Source of the DNA: Salinimicrobium profundisediminis
GTDB taxonomy: Bacteria; Bacteroidota; Bacteroidia; Flavobacteriales; Flavobacteriaceae
Assembly: GCF_026241755.1 (NCBI RefSeq)
Contig: NZ_JAPJDA010000022.1
Location: 1 to 64,000, forward strand
Reading direction: 5' to 3'
DNA length: 64,000 bases
Shown: positions 39,641-61,076 of the stretch, in pieces
Layout: the number at the start of each line of letters is the position of its first letter
Position numbering within the stretch: the first letter of the stretch is position 1
Translations under genes and position numbers: made by a program
Notes under the pieces: model-generated
Database searches by the model: none
The model's input: only the letters and a program-made list of their open reading frames with translations
Told to the model about the DNA's origin: nothing

Positions 39641-40774
39641 ATGAAAAAATTACAAATGGTTGACCTTAAGGGTCAATACGAGAAAATAAAAGACACAGTT
39701 ACTCAGTCAATGTTAGAAGTTATTGATACCACTGCATTTATCAATGGCCCCGAAGTTCATGCTTTTCAGAAAGAACTGGAAGAGTACCTGGATGTGAAAC
39801 ATGTGATTCCCTGTGCCAATGGTACAGATGCTTTGCAAATTGCCATGATGGGCCTTGGTTTAAAACCAGGTGATGAGGTGATTACTGCCGACTTTACTTT
39901 TGCGGCAACGGTAGAGGTCATTGCCTTGCTACAGCTTACGCCTGTACTTGTAGATGTGGAGCCAGATACCTTCAATATAAATCCCGAAGCCATCAAAAAA
40001 GCTATCACACCAAATACCAAAGCCATAGTGCCGGTGCACCTTTTTGGGCAGGCAGCAAATATGGATGAAATTATGGAAATTGCACAGGAACACGATCTTT
40101 ACGTGATTGAAGACAATGCCCAGGCTATAGGTGCAAATTATCACTTTAAAGACGGTGCAACAAAAAAGGCTGGTGCAATAGGTCATGTGGCATCCACGTC
40201 TTTTTTCCCTTCTAAGAATTTAGGATGTTACGGTGACGGAGGTGCTATTTTTACAAATGATGATAAGCTGGCCCACACTATTAGAGGGATTGTGAATCAC
40301 GGGATGTATGAACGTTACCATCACGATGTAGTAGGGGTGAACTCCAGGCTTGACAGTTTACAGGCTGCAGTATTGCGGGTGAAACTTCCTCAATTAGATC
40401 AATATAACAAGGCACGGCAGGAGGCTGCGCAAAAATATACCGCGGCTTTACAAAATGTAGAAGGGGTGACAGTCCCTTACACCGAAGGTGCTGCTGATAC
40501 ACATGTTTACCACCAGTACACCATAAAGATTGCGGACGGAAAAAGAGATGCTTTGGCTAAACACCTTTCAGAAAAGGGTATTCCCTTCGGGATTTATTAT
40601 CCTATCCCACTCCACAGCCAAAAGGCGTATAAAGATGACCGGTACAGGGAAGAAGATTTCACGGTGACCAATCAACTGGTAGAAGAGGTGATCTCACTGC
40701 CCATGCATACCGAATTGGATGATGAGCAAATTTCTTTTATTACAGAAACTATTGCTGATTTTCTAAAGAAGTAA
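39641..40774 (+). CDS. DegT/DnrJ/EryC1/StrS family sugar aminotransferase
   Basis: The 377-residue protein has the family order: MVDLKGQYEKIKDTV, AFINGPEVHAFQKELEEYL, CANGTDALQIAMMGLGLKPGDEVI, LFGQAANMDEI and VIEDNAQAIGA. The PLP lysine is in SFFPSKNLGCYGDGG (about residue 192), and NSRLDSLQAAVL follows. It transfers an amino group from glutamate to a nucleotide-linked ketosugar for surface polysaccharide or LPS. Similarity to the WbpE-like branch is my impression, but no partner dehydrogenase is adjacent, so the sugar is not fixed. It is followed by a strong terminator. Confidence 0.92.
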   Translation: MKKLQMVDLKGQYEKIKDTVTQSMLEVIDTTAFINGPEVHAFQKELEEYLDVKHVIPCANGTDALQIAMMGLGLKPGDEVITADFTFAATVEVIALLQLTPVLVDVEPDTFNINPEAIKKAITPNTKAIVPVHLFGQAANMDEIMEIAQEHDLYVIEDNAQAIGANYHFKDGATKKAGAIGHVASTSFFPSKNLGCYGDGGAIFTNDDKLAHTIRGIVNHGMYERYHHDVVGVNSRLDSLQAAVLRVKLPQLDQYNKARQEAAQKYTAALQNVEGVTVPYTEGAADTHVYHQYTIKIADGKRDALAKHLSEKGIPFGIYYPIPLHSQKAYKDDRYREEDFTVTNQLVEEVISLPMHTELDDEQISFITETIADFLKK

Positions 40775-43847: not shown

Positions 43848-44297
43848 TTAAGAATTTATTGGAGCATCAGGATCAATTGGTTTTTGGGTCGTGGGAGGAA
43901 TGTATGGTTCTCCTTTTGTAGGGAGGGGATAGTCTTTTTCCACTTTCTTCTGAAGTTCGGCAATTTTCTTTTGCTGCTTCGCCACCAGTCGGTCAATCTG
44001 CTCGTTTTCCCAGTCTTTTCCAAAAAATTTATTGGTGATAAACACGTTGAAAACATGAATAAGCAGTAGCAAAGCCCAGAAGATGATGGCCCACACAAAC
44101 CAGTCTATCCCAAAAGGATTAATGTTGCGGCCTATGTCAAAGATCACATTGAGCAGGATTAAAACCACCGATCCCAGTAGAAAGACTATAAAATGTTGGT
44201 ACAATCTTCTTTTTTGCCGAGCCCGCATTTGTGCCCTTTCAATAAGTCTGCGTTGCTCCGGATCTATTTTTGAAGCACTATTTTTTTCCAGCCCCAT
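43848..44297 (-). CDS. 2TM domain-containing protein
   Basis: From ATG 44297 (MGLEKNSASK) the protein has 149 residues. It consists of a basic N-terminal helix, two transmembrane helices (about residues 36-56 and 68-88) with FIVFLLGSVVLILLNVIF and WFVWAIIFWALLLLIHVF, then a KQQKKIAELQKKVEKD helix and a Pro-rich tail (GEPYIPPTTQKPIDPDAPI). This is the 2TM family of Bacteroidota membrane proteins, some of which are fused to or paired with LytTR regulators. Here it leads the folA operon; the role is unknown. Confidence 0.85.
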   Translation of the reverse strand: MGLEKNSASKIDPEQRRLIERAQMRARQKRRLYQHFIVFLLGSVVLILLNVIFDIGRNINPFGIDWFVWAIIFWALLLLIHVFNVFITNKFFGKDWENEQIDRLVAKQQKKIAELQKKVEKDYPLPTKGEPYIPPTTQKPIDPDAPINS

Positions 44298-44361
44298 ATT
44301 TAAACGTAATTTTAGAGATATTCTCAAATTTATTGATTTTACTACGGAATCTTCCTTGTTT

Positions 44362-45432
44362 ATGAAGAATTTTAAAAAACAGTTTCCTCTTTTAGAACAG
44401 TATACTTATCTCAATACTGCGGCTTCCGGTTTGTTGTCTGAAAATCTGCTGGAATTCAGGCAGGACCATGATCTCGACTTTCTCATTGGCGGCAGTTTAT
44501 TTCGTGATAAACGTGACGCTCTCTTTCTAAAAGTAAGAAAAGCGGTGGGAGATCTGTTTGGCTGTGCACCCAATCTGGTAGCGCTTACGCCAAACTTTTC
44601 CTTCGGATTTAATACGTTACTGGAAGGAATTGACCACAGCAAAAAGGTGCTTTTGCTCAAAAACGATTATCCGTCGGTAAATTGGGCTGTAGAATCGCGC
44701 GGGTTTGAGGTGTGTTATGCTGAAATTGATGAAAACCTTGAAGATAATATTGCTGAAGTAGTTTCCCGCGAAAAGCCTGATATTTTTGCTTTCAGCCTTG
44801 TGCAGTACATCAACGGAATTAAAATAGATCCCGATTTTCTTCTGAAGCTTAAGGAAGATAATCCCGGGCTTCTCCTTTTCGCCGATGGCACCCAATTTTG
44901 TGGTACCGAAAAATTCGATTTTGAAGCCTCGGCACTTGATGTACTTGGGGCCAGTGCTTATAAATGGCTTAATGCCGGGTACGGGAATGGATTTTTTCTC
45001 TTCAAAGAACATATGCAGGAAAAAGTACAGTCGGGAGAATTTGAGATCAAAGACCTGCAGGGAAAGAACAAGCCTCACAAAGGTAGTTTTATAGGGACTT
45101 TTGAACCAGGGCACCTTGATACTTTAAACTTCGGAAGCCTTAAAACCGCCATAGATCTTATAAAACAGGTGGGAATAGCAGAAATTGAAAACGGCATCAA
45201 AGAACTTGCTTCCGTTGCCAAGGCTAAACTCAGTGAAAAAGGAGTGCTGGAATCTGCAGTGGTTAACCGGGAACTGCATTCTTCGATCTTTAACATCAGG
45301 GGAGATGATAAATTGTTTCAGAAGCTACGTACCAACAGGATTATCTGCTCCCAACGAGGTGAGGGGATAAGGCTTAGTTTCCACTACTTCAATTCCGAAG
45401 AAGACCTGGAAAACCTGCTGAAGCAGTTATAA
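44362..45432 (+). CDS. Class V aminotransferase-fold protein
   Basis: From ATG 44362 (MKNFKKQFPLLEQYTYLNTAASG) the protein has 356 residues; the much longer open frame to 44083 runs through the divergent gene and is not used. Class V PLP features include YLNTAASGLLSENLL, LTPNFSFGFNTLLEGI, FADGTQFCGTEKFDF and the Lys in DVLGASAYKWLNAGYGNGF. The family includes cysteine desulfurases, kynureninases and others; I cannot assign the reaction. It is divergent from the 2TM-folA operon with a 64-bp gap. Confidence 0.88.
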   Translation: MKNFKKQFPLLEQYTYLNTAASGLLSENLLEFRQDHDLDFLIGGSLFRDKRDALFLKVRKAVGDLFGCAPNLVALTPNFSFGFNTLLEGIDHSKKVLLLKNDYPSVNWAVESRGFEVCYAEIDENLEDNIAEVVSREKPDIFAFSLVQYINGIKIDPDFLLKLKEDNPGLLLFADGTQFCGTEKFDFEASALDVLGASAYKWLNAGYGNGFFLFKEHMQEKVQSGEFEIKDLQGKNKPHKGSFIGTFEPGHLDTLNFGSLKTAIDLIKQVGIAEIENGIKELASVAKAKLSEKGVLESAVVNRELHSSIFNIRGDDKLFQKLRTNRIICSQRGEGIRLSFHYFNSEEDLENLLKQL

Positions 45433-45441
45433 AAAGGGTAT

Positions 45442-45460
45442 CCAAAAATGCCATTTTTGA
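45442..45460. repeat. Dispersed palindrome YCAAAAATGNCATTTTTGR after the class V aminotransferase gene
   Basis: CCAAAAATGCCATTTTTGA, an exact match, begins 10 bp after the stop codon. Confidence 0.7.
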
Positions 45461-45505
45461 AAGGTTTTATTTTGTCTTTTCCTTTACAATGATTGACGAT
45501 AATTT

Positions 45506-45538
45506 AGACCTCACAGGTTTCAAAAACCTGTGAGGTCT
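45506..45538. terminator. 15-bp stem-loop between convergent genes (ACCTnACAGGT family)
   Basis: AGACCTCACAGGTTT and its complement around a CAA loop lie between the class V aminotransferase and asnA stops, so it can serve both. Confidence 0.6.
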
Positions 45539-45557
45539 TTGTGAAGTCTCTGTGTTT

Positions 45558-46577
45558 TTAAAGCAAAAACACACCTTCGGTTTTTAATTCCTGTCTCATT
45601 TCATCGGGCCAGATGCTCGCCTGTACTTCCCCAATATGTCTTTTTTGAAGCAGGAACATACACAGCCTTGACTGTCCTATCCCGCCACCAATGGTTTGAG
45701 GGAGTTTTTCTGAAAGTAGCTGGTCATGGTAGTATAAACTTTTACGGTCTTCGGCTTTTCTTTCTTGTAGTTGTAGCTCCAGGGTCTTTTTGTCTACCCT
45801 AATTCCCATTGAAGACAATTCAAAAGCCTGTTCCAGTACACTGTTCCAGACTAAAATATCGCCGTTGAGGCCTTTTGTAGAAGCCGAGGTAGGAGTGCTC
45901 CAGTCATCATAATCTGGAGCCCGGCCGTCATGAGGTTCTCCGCTTTCCAGAATTCCACCTATGCCAATGAGAAATACGGCCCCAAATTCTTTAGCTGCCC
46001 TGTCTTCGCGTTGTTTTGGGCTGAGGTGAGGGTACTTTTGCAGCAGGTCTTCGGTGTGTAAAAAGGTGATTTCTTCAGGCAGGTCGAGGGAGAGGAGAGG
46101 ATATTTTTTGGTGATGGCAGCCTGGGTGGCGAGAAGGGAAGAATATATGCTGCGTACCTGGGTCTTTAGGAATTCCAATTGACGGTCTTCGGGGAGTATT
46201 ACTTTTTCCCAGTCCCACTGGTCTACCGAAATGGAATGTATTGGCCCCAGTTCTTCATCGGGCCGCAGGGCTTTCATATCGGTCACTATTCCCATTCCGG
46301 GTTCAATTTCATACTCCCGCAGTCTTAATCTTTTCCATTTAGCGAGAGATTGCACCACTTCGGCGCGGCGCTCCTGCATAGCTTTTATAGGGAAACCAAC
46401 CGGTCTTTCAATTCCGTTTAGATCGTCGTTGATGCCGGTGCCGTGAAGTACAACGGTGGGAGCCGATATTTTTACCAGTGAAAGCTGTGCTTTAAGGTGT
46501 TTTTCAAATTCAGATTTTACGAAGTCAACAGCTTCTTCAGTTTCAAGTTTTTGTGATAGTTGTAATGTAGTTTTCAT
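45558..46577 (-). CDS. asnA: Aspartate--ammonia ligase (asparagine synthetase A)
   Basis: The 339-residue protein has the AsnA order: KTTLQLSQKLETEEAVDFVK, GINDDLNGIERPVGF, VQSLAKWKRLRLREYEI, ISVDQWDWEKVI, GGILESGEPHDGRAPDYDDW and GGGIGQSRLCMFLLQKRHIGEVQ. It makes asparagine from aspartate, ammonia and ATP. The fold is that of class II aminoacyl-tRNA synthetases. The gene is preceded by a 330-bp leader with two Asn-codon-rich reading frames and two terminators (46574-46911), so its expression is probably set by asparaginyl-tRNA supply. Its ATG overlaps the stop of the second leader frame (ATGA). Confidence 0.96.
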   Translation of the reverse strand: MKTTLQLSQKLETEEAVDFVKSEFEKHLKAQLSLVKISAPTVVLHGTGINDDLNGIERPVGFPIKAMQERRAEVVQSLAKWKRLRLREYEIEPGMGIVTDMKALRPDEELGPIHSISVDQWDWEKVILPEDRQLEFLKTQVRSIYSSLLATQAAITKKYPLLSLDLPEEITFLHTEDLLQKYPHLSPKQREDRAAKEFGAVFLIGIGGILESGEPHDGRAPDYDDWSTPTSASTKGLNGDILVWNSVLEQAFELSSMGIRVDKKTLELQLQERKAEDRKSLYYHDQLLSEKLPQTIGGGIGQSRLCMFLLQKRHIGEVQASIWPDEMRQELKTEGVFLL

Positions 46578-46708
46578 AATGTTTGTTTTAAATGTTTAAG
46601 AAATAAAAAAGCCTGCCCCGGGAAGGAGGCAGGCTTTAAAGCACAGAGATCCTCTCCCCCGGGTGGCGGACTATTATTATTGATATTATTATTTTGAAGT
46701 CGTTTCAT
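46574..46708 (-). CDS. Second asnA leader peptide (Asn-rich, 44 codons)
   Basis: The ATG at 46708 opens MKRLQNNNINNNSPPP, with six AAT Asn codons around one Ile. The frame continues through the terminator hairpin (46608-46637) and stops with TGA overlapping the asnA ATG. Just past the Asn codons the RNA segment complementary to 46654-46663 can pair with the terminator loop and stem base (complement of 46617-46628), forming an antiterminator. Whether the full 44 codons are translated is uncertain; the Asn run is the functional part I infer. Confidence 0.6.
   Translation of the reverse strand: MKRLQNNNINNNSPPPGGEDLCALKPASFPGQAFLFLKHLKQTL
46608..46637 (-). terminator. Attenuator terminator 2 of asnA
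   Basis: On the minus strand AAAGCCTGCC pairs perfectly with GGCAGGCTTT around a 10-base loop, then TTTTTTATTT follows. It is only 31 bp upstream of the asnA start codon. Confidence 0.8.
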
Positions 46709-46723
46709 TATTCTGCAAAAAAA

Positions 46724-46752
46724 AAAGCCTTTCCGGGTGGCGGAAAGGCTTT
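46724..46752 (-). terminator. Attenuator terminator 1 of asnA
   Basis: On the minus strand AAAGCCTTTCCG and CGGAAAGGCTTT form a perfect 12-bp stem with a 5-base loop, followed by a run of about ten T. It lies just after the stop of the first leader peptide. Confidence 0.85.
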
Positions 46753-46816
46753 GAATATTGTTTAAGGGATTTTTTATACAATAATAGCTCTCCGCAATCT
46801 GATTTGATTCAGATTG
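46741..46816 (-). promoter_or_regulatory. Alternative structures of asnA attenuator 1
   Basis: Two competing structures are visible. A perfect 8-bp hairpin at 46795-46816 (CAATCTGA/TCAGATTG) covers the last Asn codons of leader 1. The segment at 46786-46794 (AGCTCTCCG on the plus strand) can pair in RNA with 46741-46750, the 5' arm of terminator 1, extended by a six-base pairing between 46778-46783 and 46756-46761. A ribosome stalled on Asn codons would favour the second structure and read-through. Confidence 0.6.
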
Positions 46817-46851
46817 TTATTGAAATTATTATTGTTATTATTTAAAATCAC
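46774..46851 (-). CDS. First asnA leader peptide (10 Asn of 25 residues)
   Basis: A GTG at 46851 opens a 25-codon frame: MILNNNNNNFNNNLN followed by QIRLRRAIIV and TAA at 46774. Ten codons are Asn (AAT or AAC), far above chance even in AT-rich DNA, and terminator 1 begins 22 bp after the stop. No in-frame ATG is available upstream because a TAA intervenes. The gene it precedes makes asparagine, which fits classical leader-peptide attenuation. Confidence 0.65.
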   Translation of the reverse strand: MILNNNNNNFNNNLNQIRLRRAIIV

Positions 46852-46903
46852 CTGGATTGTTCTTTTTTGATTTTGGTAAACTTAGGTCATTTTTTTTAAA
46901 TGG

Positions 46904-46911
46904 CAAATTTA
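46904..46911 (-). promoter_or_regulatory. Candidate -7 box for the asnA leader transcript
   Basis: On the minus strand TAAATTTG matches TAnnTTTG exactly and lies about 53 bp upstream of leader 1. It overlaps the stop codon of the DUF427 gene. A clear TTTG -33 element is not seen. Confidence 0.45.
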
Positions 46912-47190
46912 TTTTTCTATTTTCACTCCGTTCCAGAAAGCCACGTGGTTCTTAATTTGTGCTGCCTCGGGTTTTGGATGCGGATAAAACCAGGCCGCAT
47001 CGGTATTTTTTTCATCTCCCACTTTTAGGTGAAAATAAGAGGCTCTGCCTTTCCAGGGGCACACTGTATGGGTATCGCTCAGGTTGAAGAATTCAGAATT
47101 TATAGATTCCGGGGGGAAATACTGGTTGTTTTCTACTTCAACAGTTTGATCACTTTCGGCTATTACGGTGTTATTCCAAATTGCTTTCAT
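46909..47190 (-). CDS. DUF427 domain-containing protein
   Basis: The 93-residue protein is a single DUF427 domain: MKAIWNNTVIAESDQTVEVENNQYFPPESI, TVCPWKGRASYFHLKVGD with the conserved CPWKG block, and AAWFYPHPKPEAAQIKNHVAFW. The family is a small beta-barrel of unknown activity. Its ATG abuts the egtD stop, so both are translated from one transcript. The asnA leader begins directly after it. Confidence 0.9.
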   Translation of the reverse strand: MKAIWNNTVIAESDQTVEVENNQYFPPESINSEFFNLSDTHTVCPWKGRASYFHLKVGDEKNTDAAWFYPHPKPEAAQIKNHVAFWNGVKIEK

Positions 47191-48161
47191 TATTTTATTC
47201 TTTTAAAAAGATAGTTTTTAAAGCAGCTGTCTTTGTCGGCCCAACAGCCTGAAATCTCCAGTCCGGCTTCTTTGGCCAGCCAGGCTATGGAGGTGTCATC
47301 ATATTTTTGGGATACTTCGGTGTGTACGGTCTCCCATTTTTGAAAATGCACTTTAATGTCAAGAGCATTTATTGCTACAGTTTGTTCCTTTTTGCTCACC
47401 AGGAAGCTTTTGGCTACTCCTGATTCTGGATCATAAAGGGGCCAGTGCATAAAATCTTCAGGATCAAATTCGGCATCCAGTTCCCTGTTCATTCGCGTGA
47501 GCAGGTTTTTATTGAATGCTTCGGTAACTCCGGCGCCGTCATTATAAGCATCCAAAATCACCTTTGGATCCTTCTTTTGATCCACTCCCATAAAGAAAAG
47601 ATCTTTTTCATGCATTGCAGAAGATATCTTCTTTAAAAAGTTCACAGCTTCTTCGGGAGTGAGATTCCCAATATTCGAACCCAGGAAAAGGATCACTTTT
47701 TTACGCTCCCGGTAATCGGCCAGGCGGCTGAGTACTTCGGCATATGTGCCCTGCTGTGGTTCTACCTCTACAGCAGGAAATTCCTGTTGCAGGCTGCCTT
47801 TTAACTGCTCGAGCACATTCTTACTGATATCTACCGGCAGGTATTTATAGTCATAGTTCTTTTCTTCAAAGTGACTTAACAGCACCTTTGTTTTTTTCCC
47901 GTCCCCGGCACCAAGTTCTATAAGGTCAAAACCTTCTAAAGAGGCAAATTCATCTCCTAATTCTTCCCTGTGGCGCTTAAGAATTTGATATTCCTTGCCC
48001 GTAAGATAGTACTGGGGCAGGTCCATGATCTGCTGAAAGAGCTCGTCTCCCTTTTCATCATAAAGGAATTTTGAGCTAATTTTTTTAGGATATGAAGTAA
48101 GGCCTTTAAAGACGTCTTCGGCAAACTGGGTTTTGAATTCCGGAGGTTTGGTGTTGTTCAT
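47190..48161 (-). CDS. egtD: L-histidine N-alpha-methyltransferase (EgtD-like)
   Basis: The 323-residue protein has the EgtD layout: FAEDVFKGLTSYPKKISSKFLYDEKGDELF, LPQYYLTGKEYQIL, the SAM site LIELGAGDGKKTKVLLSHF, LPVDISKNVLEQLKGSL, FLGSNIGNLTPEEAVNFL and FFMGVDQKKDP. The family trimethylates histidine to hercynine, the first step of ergothioneine synthesis. The sulfoxide synthase EgtB that normally accompanies it is not next to it, so the pathway assignment is tentative. It is first in a two-gene unit with DUF427. Confidence 0.88.
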   Translation of the reverse strand: MNNTKPPEFKTQFAEDVFKGLTSYPKKISSKFLYDEKGDELFQQIMDLPQYYLTGKEYQILKRHREELGDEFASLEGFDLIELGAGDGKKTKVLLSHFEEKNYDYKYLPVDISKNVLEQLKGSLQQEFPAVEVEPQQGTYAEVLSRLADYRERKKVILFLGSNIGNLTPEEAVNFLKKISSAMHEKDLFFMGVDQKKDPKVILDAYNDGAGVTEAFNKNLLTRMNRELDAEFDPEDFMHWPLYDPESGVAKSFLVSKKEQTVAINALDIKVHFQKWETVHTEVSQKYDDTSIAWLAKEAGLEISGCWADKDSCFKNYLFKRIK

Positions 48162-48207
48162 AAGGAAAAAAATTTCCGGCGTAATTACCTTTTTTGGGGA
48201 ATAAAAA

Positions 48208-48229
48208 AAGGAAACCCGCAGGTTTCCTT
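48208..48229 (-). terminator. Terminator after the small TonB-domain genes
   Basis: The stem AAGGAAACC/GGTTTCCTT with loop CGCA, followed on the minus strand by TTTTTT, lies 53 bp past the stop of the second TonB-domain gene. Confidence 0.75.
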
Positions 48230-48282
48230 CAAATTTAAACTTTTATGTATCCCTTTTAGTTAAAGGAATAATAAGAATAGGC

Positions 48283-48696
48283 TTAGAATGTAAAAGGAAC
48301 TTTATAGCTCACCTCCACAGGTTTCCCGGCCATCTGCCCCGGCGTCATCGGCGGAATGGCAAGAATGATCCTCTTTGCTTCTTCATTGAGTTCCTTTTTG
48401 GCGCCTTCAACTTTAGAAATTACCGGCTTCCCTTCTTTATTGATCACAAAAGAAACTATAGCTTTCCCCCTAATGTAGTTGCCAGCTTTATCTTTTGGGA
48501 ACTTGTAATTCTCCTTGAGATGCTGGGTGAGCTTCTCCTTAAAACAGGTTTTTGAATTCCCCGAAAAATCTTCACAACCCGGCCAAACCGGAGGGGTTTC
48601 TTTGGTAGTGAGCGTATTTTTGGATACACTTACACCTTCCTGGGCAAATGTTGCTCCTGCGCTAAACAGGAAAAGGACAAAAAATAATTTTTTCAT
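48283..48696 (-). CDS. Small secreted protein with TonB C-terminal-like domain, copy B
   Basis: The 137-residue protein has a signal peptide (MKKLFFVLFLFSAGATFAQ). The mature part begins with a region containing PPVWPGCEDFSGNSKTCFKEKLTQHLKENYKFP, then a TonB-like C-terminal fold: IRGKAIVSFVINKEGKPVISKVEGAKKELNEEAKRIILAIPPMTPGQMAGKPVEVSYKVPFTF. It lacks the N-terminal transmembrane anchor and Pro-rich linker of a true TonB, so it is probably periplasmic. It shares the WPGCED-C-x-F block with the next gene and lies 16 bp after it. Confidence 0.85.
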   Translation of the reverse strand: MKKLFFVLFLFSAGATFAQEGVSVSKNTLTTKETPPVWPGCEDFSGNSKTCFKEKLTQHLKENYKFPKDKAGNYIRGKAIVSFVINKEGKPVISKVEGAKKELNEEAKRIILAIPPMTPGQMAGKPVEVSYKVPFTF

Positions 48697-48712
48697 GATC
48701 TGGGGCTTGTTC

Positions 48713-49087
48713 TTAGAAGCGGTAGGTAGTGGTAAAATTCCGGGAATCGGGCTCTCCGTTTAAAGTCCCGGGCTTCATATCTGGAATCTTTTTGAGCATT
48801 TCCCTGGCAGCTTCATTCACCAGTGGCTCCGATCCTTCAACCGAATTCACAATAACTTTCCCTTCTTCATTAATATTGAAAGATACTTTTACTTCTCCCC
48901 GAACGTAAGCATTCTGCTTCATGGGGTATTCGTAATTTTCCCTTACATGGGCATTTAGTTTTTCGTTAAAACATTCCGATTTATCTTCAGCGTCTTCACA
49001 GCCCGGCCAAACTGGTGAGGTTTGTTGTGCCTGGGCACCTGCTATTCCTCCAAAGAAAAAACATGCAATAACTAATAACTTCTTCAT
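48713..49087 (-). CDS. Small secreted protein with TonB C-terminal-like domain, copy A
   Basis: The 124-residue protein has a signal peptide (MKKLLVIACFFFGGIAGAQAQ) and the same arrangement as its neighbour: SPVWPGCEDAEDKSECFNEKLNAHVRENYEYP, then VRGEVKVSFNINEEGKVIVNSVEGSEPLVNEAAREMLKKIPDMKPGTLNGEPDSRNFTTTYRF. The pair looks like a tandem duplication. The two Cys in the CED...CF block could form a disulfide. The role is unknown; partners could be outer membrane receptors. Confidence 0.85.
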   Translation of the reverse strand: MKKLLVIACFFFGGIAGAQAQQTSPVWPGCEDAEDKSECFNEKLNAHVRENYEYPMKQNAYVRGEVKVSFNINEEGKVIVNSVEGSEPLVNEAAREMLKKIPDMKPGTLNGEPDSRNFTTTYRF

Positions 49088-49118
49088 AATGCTTAAAAAA
49101 TTTAAAATTGGACAAAAA

Positions 49119-49943
49119 TTAAACCGCTACCTGCCCTTTTATAGCCGGATGCGGATCATAATTTTCCAATTTAAAATCTTCAAACTTAAAATCAAAAATA
49201 TTTTTCACCTCAGGATTCAGTTTCATGACAGGCAAAGGCCTCGCATCCCGCGACAGCTGTAGGTTTACCTGCTCCAGGTGGTTGTTGTAAATATGAGCAT
49301 CACCAAAAGTGTGAATAAAATCTCCTGCTTCATAACCACATACCTGCGCAATCATCATAGTGAGCAGGGCATAGGAAGCGATGTTGAACGGTACCCCCAG
49401 AAAAATATCTGCACTTCGCTGGTAGAGTTGGCAGGATAATTTGCCGTTAGCAACGTAGAACTGAAAAAATGCATGACATGGAGGAAGCGCGGCTTTTCCA
49501 TTCGCTACATTTTCTGAAAAGGATTTTGAGGTATCGGGCAGTACCGAAGGGTTCCAGGCGGTAACCAGCATGCGGCGGCTGTTGGGGCTGGTCTTCAATG
49601 TTTCTACTACCTCTTTTATTTGATCTATATCTTCACTGTTCCAGTTGCGCCATTGATGACCGTACACCGGACCCAAATCGCCGTTCCCGTCGGCCCATTC
49701 GTTCCAGATACGCACTCCGTTTTCCTGTAAATATTTAATGTTGGTATCGCCGTTGAGGAACCAAAGCAGCTCGTAAATAATAGATTTTAGATGGAGCTTT
49801 TTTGTGGTAACCATGGGAAAACCTTCACTTAAATCAAACCGCATCTGGTAACCAAACACGCTTTTTGTGCCGGTGCCGGTGCGGTCTCCTTTTTCATTTC
49901 CGTTTTCCAGGACGTGTTTTATCAAGTCGTGATACTGCTTCAT
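49119..49943 (-). CDS. thyA: Thymidylate synthase
   Basis: The 274-residue protein is full-length Thy[75 protein letters not shown], the nucleophile Cys in [13 protein letters not shown] (about residue 156), [26 protein letters not shown] and [15 protein letters not shown]. It methylates dUMP to dTMP with methylene-tetrahydrofolate, producing dihydrofolate for FolA. It is monocistronic, with a 234-bp gap to the nucleoside transporter gene. Confidence 0.97.
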
Positions 49944-60458: not shown

Positions 60459-61076
60459 CTACTTAAAAAGTCCGTTAAGCTCCCCATCTACCCTGGTGAT
60501 GATGTTACCAAGATCTTCAGGGTTATCTACAAAGTTGATATTATCAACATCTATGATGAGCAGGTTACCTTTGTTGTAGTTGTGCACCCAGGCTTCGTAA
60601 CGTTCGTTGAGGCGGCTCAGGTAATCTATAGAAATTGAATTTTCATAATCTCTCCCGCGTTTGTGGATTTGGGAAACCAGGTTGGGAATACTGCTGCGCA
60701 GGTAGATCAACAGGTCTGGGCCCTGCACTACACTTTCCATAAGATCGAAAAGCGACCGGTAGTTTTCGTAGTCGCGGTTGGTCATCAGCCCCATAGCATG
60801 CAGGTTAGGCGCAAAAATATGGGCATCTTCATAGATGGTGCGGTCCTGGATTATCGCCCTTCCGCTTTCCCGAATTTCTAAAATCTGCCTAAAGCGGCTG
60901 TTCAAAAAGTAGATTTGCAGGTTAAAAGACCAGCGTTCCATTTTGTTGTAGAAGTCCTCGAGGTAAGGGTTTTCCAGTACATCTTCATACTGGGCTTCCC
61001 AGTTAAAATGTTTAGCTAGTGATTTGGTAAGGGTGGTTTTTCCCGCCCCAATATTTCCCGCAATGGCTACGTGCAT
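60459..61076 (-). CDS. Deoxynucleoside kinase
   Basis: The 205-residue protein is a stand-alone dNK: Walker A MHVAIAGNIGAGKTTL (residues 1-16), EDVLENPYLEDFYNKMERWSFNLQIYFL, the ERS-like IIQDRTIYEDAHIFA with the DR substrate motif, and the lid IHKRGRDYENSISIDYLSRLNERYEAW. It phosphorylates deoxynucleosides for dNTP salvage. It is paralogous to the C-terminal half of the FolK fusion protein at 25829-26950, so the organism has two such kinases. It is monocistronic. Confidence 0.94.
   Translation of the reverse strand: MHVAIAGNIGAGKTTLTKSLAKHFNWEAQYEDVLENPYLEDFYNKMERWSFNLQIYFLNSRFRQILEIRESGRAIIQDRTIYEDAHIFAPNLHAMGLMTNRDYENYRSLFDLMESVVQGPDLLIYLRSSIPNLVSQIHKRGRDYENSISIDYLSRLNERYEAWVHNYNKGNLLIIDVDNINFVDNPEDLGNIITRVDGELNGLFK

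Follow-up and report, generated by a model that had tools for sequence, protein, structure and literature searches.

Two putative asparagine leader-peptide attenuators in series upstream of asnA in a Bacteroidota genome

Organization of the asnA upstream region

The window, a 64-kb stretch of the Salinimicrobium profundisediminis genome, carries a gene for aspartate--ammonia ligase (asnA) on its minus strand. Two leader frames rich in Asn codons, each with a terminator, sit between this gene and a DUF427 gene on the same strand. The features are listed below in the order in which they are transcribed, and the pairings within each unit are denoted 1:2 (protector), 2:3 (antiterminator), and 3:4 (terminator).

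46909-47190 (-): DUF427 gene, the 5' neighbor, whose end at 46909 and leader 1 are some 60 nt apart
46877-46906 (-): promoter-like pair just 5' of leader 1; TTG at 46906-46904, a 19-nt spacer, and TAAGTTTA at 46884-46877
46774-46851 (-): leader peptide 1; GTG start, MILNNNNNNFNNNLNQIRLRRAIIV and a stop codon, 25 codons of which 10 are Asn
46778-46835 (-): protector fold 1:2 of unit 1 predicted by RNAalifold; Asn-codon RNA at 46835-46827 with 46786-46778, around a hairpin at 46816-46795
46740-46795 (-): antiterminator 2:3 of unit 1; 46795-46778 with ACAATA at 46761-46756 plus AGCCTTTCCGC at 46750-46740
46724-46752 (-): terminator 1 (3:4) and T run, predicted by terminator scan; present in 10/10 genus loci
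46574-46708 (-): leader peptide 2; ATG start, beginning MKRLQNNNINNNSPPPGGED, with no stop codon before terminator 2
46661-46669 (-): Pro-Pro-Pro (CCG CCA CCC) at the border of segment 2, where the ribosome is proposed to park
46620-46660 (-): antiterminator 2:3 of unit 2; GGGGGAGAGG at 46660-46651 with CCTCCTTCCC at 46629-46620
46608-46637 (-): terminator 2 (3:4) and T run, predicted by terminator scan; present in 10/10 genus loci
45558-46577 (-): asnA, the proposed regulated gene; TIGR00669, 406.3 bits against a cut-off of 292.8

Bacteroidota promoters have the consensus TTG / TAnnTTTG, and the TTG-N19-TAAGTTTA pair lies near it. Directly 5' of this putative promoter, the DUF427 gene and a gene for an egtD-like histidine methyltransferase overlap by one base (window 46909-48161, minus strand), and by eye the end of a DUF427 gene also lies 5' of the asnA region in the other loci of the genus.

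The original prediction described two Asn-rich frames, the first with 10 Asn among its 25 codons and the second, starting at 46708, with the run NNNINNN, each followed by a terminator. Both frames were recovered, as were the terminators at 46752-46724 and 46637-46608, which form 12 pairs each when A-U pairs are counted and end in T runs. For the second frame, the Asn run and its place before terminator 2 held, and one correction was needed: the frame has no stop codon before that terminator and instead continues for 44 codons, ending in a TGA that overlaps the ATG of asnA (ATGA).

Terminators of this kind are not evidence when taken alone, because a scan of 3.5 kb yielded five terminator-like sites when 4.2 are expected in shuffled sequence. 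The combination is another matter. An Asn leader (at least six Asn in 22 codons) followed by a terminator arose even once in none of 2000 dinucleotide shuffles of the 340-nt region, and of the three Asn-rich frames in the 64-kb window, only the two asnA leaders are followed by a terminator; the other, at 60587, is not. Similarly, of the three occurrences of the pattern AAYAAYAAYNNNAAYAAYAAY in the 4.04-Mb genome, two lie upstream of asnA. A Leu-rich match at 40719 was rejected as a leader since it is out of frame and inside a gene. Overall, these tests confirm that the paired leader and terminator units upstream of asnA are real and exclude chance as their source.

Conservation and coding constraint within the genus

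A gene for AsnA was found in 10 of 12 genomes of the genus, the other two genomes being 74-75% complete, and all 10 retain both units. Leader 1 begins with GTG in nine of these loci and with ATG in one. It is under coding constraint, with a pN/pS of 0.09 compared with 1.81 and 5.08 in the shifted frames, and its Asn positions exchange AAT and AAC while the residue itself is rarely altered. Constraint on leader 2 is weak within the genus (pN/pS 0.71 vs 2.78 and 0.88 in shifted frames), and five of its Asn columns are invariant in all 10 loci.

The leaders and hairpins could in principle answer some other signal, as part of a riboswitch, a T-box, or the target of an RNA-binding protein, with the Asn-richness being a byproduct of a region that is indeed A+T rich. 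We consider this very unlikely. In leader 1, AAT and AAC are exchanged with Asn kept, and only 18 of the 2000 shuffles had one Asn-rich frame, none of them with a terminator behind it. Furthermore, a search of window positions 44000-49500 against Rfam gave 10 matches up to E = 5, none of which reached the gathering score and none of which was a T-box. Those to Thr_leader and Phe_leader were sub-threshold, with E above 3, and were set aside. The genes found behind such leaders (asnA, asnB, and gatA; see below) presumably all serve the supply of Asn or Asn-tRNA, which also argues against an unrelated signal.

The end of leader 2 invites a separate explanation, in which the frame extends AsnA at its N terminus or couples translation by ending on the start codon of asnA. 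The ATGA overlap in the window fits this idea, and in L010 the frame reads into asnA without a stop. However, only three of the 10 genus loci have the overlap, which is why it was treated as chance and coupling was rejected, and leader 2 ends well before asnA in L158, L159, L162, L164, L165, and L060. Among the explanations considered here, this one has the smallest chance of being correct.

Alternative structures in unit 1

Unit 1 has three alternative pairings. When the 10 genus sequences were folded together by RNAalifold, the RNA of the Asn codons base-paired to the distal end of segment 2, enclosing an inner hairpin, so that this unit has the 1:2 protector hairpin expected of a leader-peptide attenuator. 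Of 30 predicted pairs, two were changed on both sides and yet kept, and both belong to this 1:2 fold.

The original prediction also proposed pairings that would disrupt each terminator; these are present in the sequence and match the best duplexes computed for the two units. In the window, segment 2 of unit 1 pairs with the 5' side of terminator 1 at -16.6 kcal/mol, a value reached by none of 200 shuffles. Of the 27 loci with unit 1, 23 were tested; the same antiterminator outperforms shuffles (p <= 0.05) in 19 of these, the exceptions being L025, L060, L029, and L088. Across the 10 genus sequences, 91.3% of cells are paired, compared with 39-50% when the pairing is slid, and no pair is changed on both sides. 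Swapping the partners among 12 chosen loci gave a mean of -14.5 kcal/mol for each locus's own pairing vs -11.2 for swapped pairings (p 0.0003). The leader 1 stop codon lies directly after segment 2, a placement that fits a ribosome covering this segment.

Alternative structures in unit 2

In unit 2, the 1:2 element is a short hairpin only, and the 2:3 antiterminator forms when arm 4 is withheld from folding. By folding, each unit has an antiterminator that excludes its terminator, with that of unit 2 no better than shuffles in 12 of 14 loci. The two of 14 tested (19 loci have unit 2) that pass at p <= 0.05 do not include the window, whose p is 0.25, and the pairing in L025 is weak. Because so few loci exceed shuffles, each segment 2 was compared across all terminator arms. 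The mean for own arms was -11.9 kcal/mol vs -8.5 when swapped, and none of 200,000 permutations of the 11 chosen loci did as well; with one locus for each of eight lineages, p was 0.0002. Since the own arm ranked first in only six of 11 loci for unit 2, and the own target in only four of 12 for unit 1, the swap signal is one of averages. Segment 2 starts at nucleotides 40-49 of leader 2 in all 11 loci.

The end of leader 2 varies relative to these structures. The position of its stop codon would fit a ribosome covering segment 2 in L009, L060, L082, L158, L164, and L165, and the stop falls at the edge of the terminator 2 stem in L025 and L005. Nine of the 10 genus loci, including the window, have no stop before terminator 2, and in L005 the stop touches the stem.

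Distribution among asnA loci

The gene itself is rare in the genomes sampled, with hits over the cut-off in 8/395 genomes of the order, 21/395 of the phylum, and 28/397 of the family, these samples being overlapping. Upstream regions were examined for 138 asnA loci (118 + 20), a few of them near-copies. One set of 80 loci, the best of 589, is no fair sample; the named AsnA relatives that match best there belong, with few exceptions, to Bacteroidota. Among the relatives of G152 (88 genomes) and of G059 (two genomes), one asnA each was found, already in the set. Left out of the 20-locus set were L166 (the same gene as L001) and L169 and L175 (partial genes), and L069 provided 81 nt of upstream sequence.

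Tandem units were found in 17 of the 138 loci: the 10 of the genus plus L009, L025, L060, L082, L162, L164, and L165. Leader 2 of L025 has too few Asn codons for the script and was read separately, then counted as tandem. Unit 1 alone occurs in 10 loci, seven of which belong to a Hymenobacter group, and unit 2 alone in two, so that seven tandem and 12 single-unit loci lie outside the genus. In the comparison of regions upstream of asnA that the original prediction called for, Asn runs, terminators, and antiterminators are kept together both in 10/10 genus loci and in diverged, distant lineages. No clear instance of hairpins kept without Asn codons was found among the 138 loci. In seven, a terminator-like site stands without an Asn leader (L061, L065, L104, L120, L127, L160, and L177); these sites start at least 209 nt before asnA and probably mark the ends of upstream genes. 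A terminator with a weak leader of four Asn was seen in L055 and its copy L142, and an Asn-rich frame with a terminator in L146 is far off and outside the tree group described below. The counts leave out L149, L168, a third frame in L002, and further Asn-rich frames that have no terminator.

A promoter-like TAnnTTTR lies within 70 nt 5' of leader 1 in 19 of 26 loci (26 of the 27 loci with unit 1 were covered), whereas 12% would be expected in shuffles. Six of the seven loci that lack it are from the Hymenobacter group. In that group (L053, L054, L056, L058, L088, L134, and L140), 165-196 nt separate the start of terminator 1 from asnA, and the intervening sequence has other inverted repeats by eye and no Asn leader.

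A quick, midpoint-rooted tree of 137 AsnA proteins was built, with L142 excluded for having the same upstream region as L055 and the near-identical L057 and L136 both kept. All 29 attenuated rows fall within a single group of 37 rows, whose SH-aLRT of 94 is slightly below the value that the tool marks with a star. The group covers three families within the order of the window, together with Mesonia, Vaginella, the Hymenobacter group, and a Bacteroidales MAG. Placement is unsure for four long-branched rows, L009, L126, L082, and L029. Eight rows of the group were scored as having no leader, one of them being L055 with its weak leader, which leaves seven of 37 in which none was found. The attenuator thus seems to track a lineage of the asnA gene, whether by descent or by transfer.

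This distribution bears on whether both units serve asnA. Terminator 1 might simply end transcripts of egtD and DUF427, leaving leader 1 as a relic and a single unit as the attenuator; the DUF427 gene does end about 60 nt before leader 1, and single-unit versions of either type exist. This arrangement is improbable, given that leader 1 itself lies between the upstream gene and terminator 1, is held at a pN/pS of 0.09, and has a matched antiterminator, and that both units occur together in seven loci outside the genus.

Similar leaders upstream of other genes

The same logic precedes some other genes. Genes for E. coli-type asnB gave 31 matches in 41 genomes of the family, and four of the 21 loci examined (L200, L207, L208, and L211) have a single Asn leader and terminator, with leaders MSLNNNIRINNNFLQR, MLVNVSNNNNYMP, MSFNSLNNNNNELP, and a frame ending NNNNNGTP. 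Three of the four end in Pro right before the stop. The other 17, including the copy in the window genome, have no terminator within 350 nt upstream. The window genome has two asnB-family genes without an Asn leader of this kind, and so its Asn supply may not depend on asnA alone. In L182 and L192, among other asnB-family loci scanned, the Asn-rich frame was judged by eye to be the tail of an upstream gene and was rejected. No Asn-rich leader followed by a T run was found in 30 asnS loci examined, this gene being present in 31/31 genomes.

A covariance model of unit 1 was run over 296 genomes of the order and gave 14 matches at E <= 0.001. Four of these (L012, L025, L009, and L029) are asnA loci of its own training set and carry no weight. 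Two more, L228 and L229 (in G316 and G291), have Asn-run leaders MMNNNNNNNFNNPIF and MIINNNNNNFNNPNL with a terminator; these lie 5' of a small gene and gatA, starting near position 1501 in the oriented loci. The small gene in L228 is gatC-like, below both curated cut-offs, and its gatA is cut by the end of the locus; L229 was compared by eye only. Perhaps genes for tRNA-dependent amidation are also attenuated in response to Asn-tRNA in these two loci. Two matches, L233 and L234, have no leader of this kind.

The remaining matches involve other residues. In L225, L226, L227, L230, and L231, from five genomes in one genus of another family, a Thr-rich leader such as MNFTTTTTISTTTTIRSCRKACL and a terminator lie around position 1500, before a gene for aspartate kinase (one of the five proteins was scanned). 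In L232, a Cys leader, MKNLFTVCMPCNCCAKCGEVAAMV, is found around position 1550 before a gene for uroporphyrinogen-III C-methyltransferase.

A proposed mechanism of two attenuators in series

Computation defines the leaders, the terminators, the mutually exclusive pairings and their conservation, and the coding constraint on leader 1. At the level of sequence, asnA is preceded by short frames rich in codons for its product, with an intrinsic terminator between leader and gene. Joint conservation, own pairings that exceed swapped ones on average, and the AAT/AAC exchange in leader 1 support the original reading of tandem Asn leader-peptide attenuators. Very probably, two ribosome-mediated transcription attenuators act in series to control asnA through the level of charged tRNA(Asn).

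With ample Asn-tRNA, the ribosome would pass the Asn run and halt on segment 2, at the stop codon in leader 1 and at Pro-Pro-Pro in leader 2. Segment 3 would then be free, the terminator would form, and RNA polymerase would stop. When Asn-tRNA is short, a ribosome stalled in the Asn run would open the 1:2 fold, segment 2 would pair with segment 3, and the polymerase would continue in the absence of a terminator. Termination in vivo at both sites would mean that RNA polymerase must pass both units in turn to reach asnA, which might make repression tight, as the original prediction held.

A proline motif in leader 2

A Pro-Pro occurs no more than three residues after the Asn run of leader 2 in five of the eight lineages with unit 2, with differing Pro codons. 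The endings are SPPPGG or like it in the genus, KSPPGPD in L025, KSPPG-stop in L164, KSPPQ-stop in L165, and SPPLSPV-stop in L082. L162, a sister of L164, has SPSG in place of Pro-Pro, and the remaining three lineages have NST, NSLHR, and NLTASG before the stop. The Pro-Pro-Pro of the window is near the position of Pro-Pro-stop or stop in other lineages. Its sequence CCGCCACCC, with Pro-Pro-Pro in frame, is invariant in 10/10 genus loci, which might also be caused by a constraint on the RNA.

Pro-Pro would be expected to prolong the stay of the ribosome on segment 2. It is possible, though we hold this only tentatively, that leader 2 parks the ribosome on the antiterminator strand through an intrinsic pause at Pro-Pro(-Pro) rather than through a stop codon alone. 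Leader 2 of the window, having no stop there, would rely on this pause. In wild-type E. coli, EF-P largely relieves polyproline stalls, which weakens the case for parking at prolines. If the proposal is true, the Asn codons would signal 'stall upstream, transcribe' and the proline pause 'arrive, terminate', and control of asnA would hinge on both EF-P and charged tRNA(Asn), given the nine genus loci without a stop before terminator 2.

Two studies describe related effects in constructs. In E. coli lacking EF-P, termination at the pyr terminator increases when polyproline stalls lie 5' of it (PMC5021804), and Pro runs inserted into the his leader serve as a reporter of pausing (PMC8129111). In both, as proposed for leader 2, a Pro-run pause within a short frame determines what happens at a terminator. 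Those are built E. coli reporters, whereas leader 2 of asnA has a natural Pro-Pro after an Asn run within an attenuator.

Comparison with known regulatory systems

Control of asnA by AsnC in E. coli and of Asn genes by T-boxes in Firmicutes places the same gene function under the control of Asn supply. Unlike these systems, asnA in the window has a leader peptide, and no T-box appears among its Rfam matches.

In a 2010 survey, leader-peptide systems are described as known only in Proteobacteria and Actinobacteria, with Firmicutes added (PMC2965389). Strong clues for leader-peptide attenuation before amino-acid operons have been presented for Flavobacterium psychrophilum (PMC9723704), a member of the same broad group as the window's species; the main text of that article does not contain the word asparagine, and the parts of it considered here describe no tandem units. 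A search of open-access literature, one match to 'Asn codons' (PMC6685928) aside, returned no report of Asn leader-peptide attenuation or of tandem leader-peptide attenuators. What is new relative to known attenuation would be asparagine as the residue, two units in series, and possibly a proline parking site. Also new here is a leader 2 that, in the window, has no stop before its terminator, where a polyproline pause may park the ribosome.

With these findings, asparagine would join the residues that leader-peptide attenuation senses, in attenuators that have stayed with a single gene lineage in several families of Bacteroidota. The leaders of asnA, asnB, and gatA suggest a group of genes whose expression follows Asn-tRNA with no protein regulator involved. 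Furthermore, a naturally doubled attenuator offers a system for asking why two units persist, and Pro-Pro after the Asn run provides a connection, open to testing in wild genomes, between pausing that depends on EF-P and the termination of transcription.

Leader-peptide attenuators are known from the his, thr, trp, and phe operons of Proteobacteria. The his mechanism is described in PMC8129111. The asnA region resembles these in its short frames rich in codons for the product, its 1:2, 2:3, and 3:4 folds, and its intrinsic terminator before the first gene. It differs in that its leaders would sense asparagine, that two complete units stand in series, and that it belongs to the phylum Bacteroidota. 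Also, strand 1 of asnA unit 1 is the Asn-codon RNA itself, and in leader 2 a Pro-Pro precedes or replaces a nearby stop codon.
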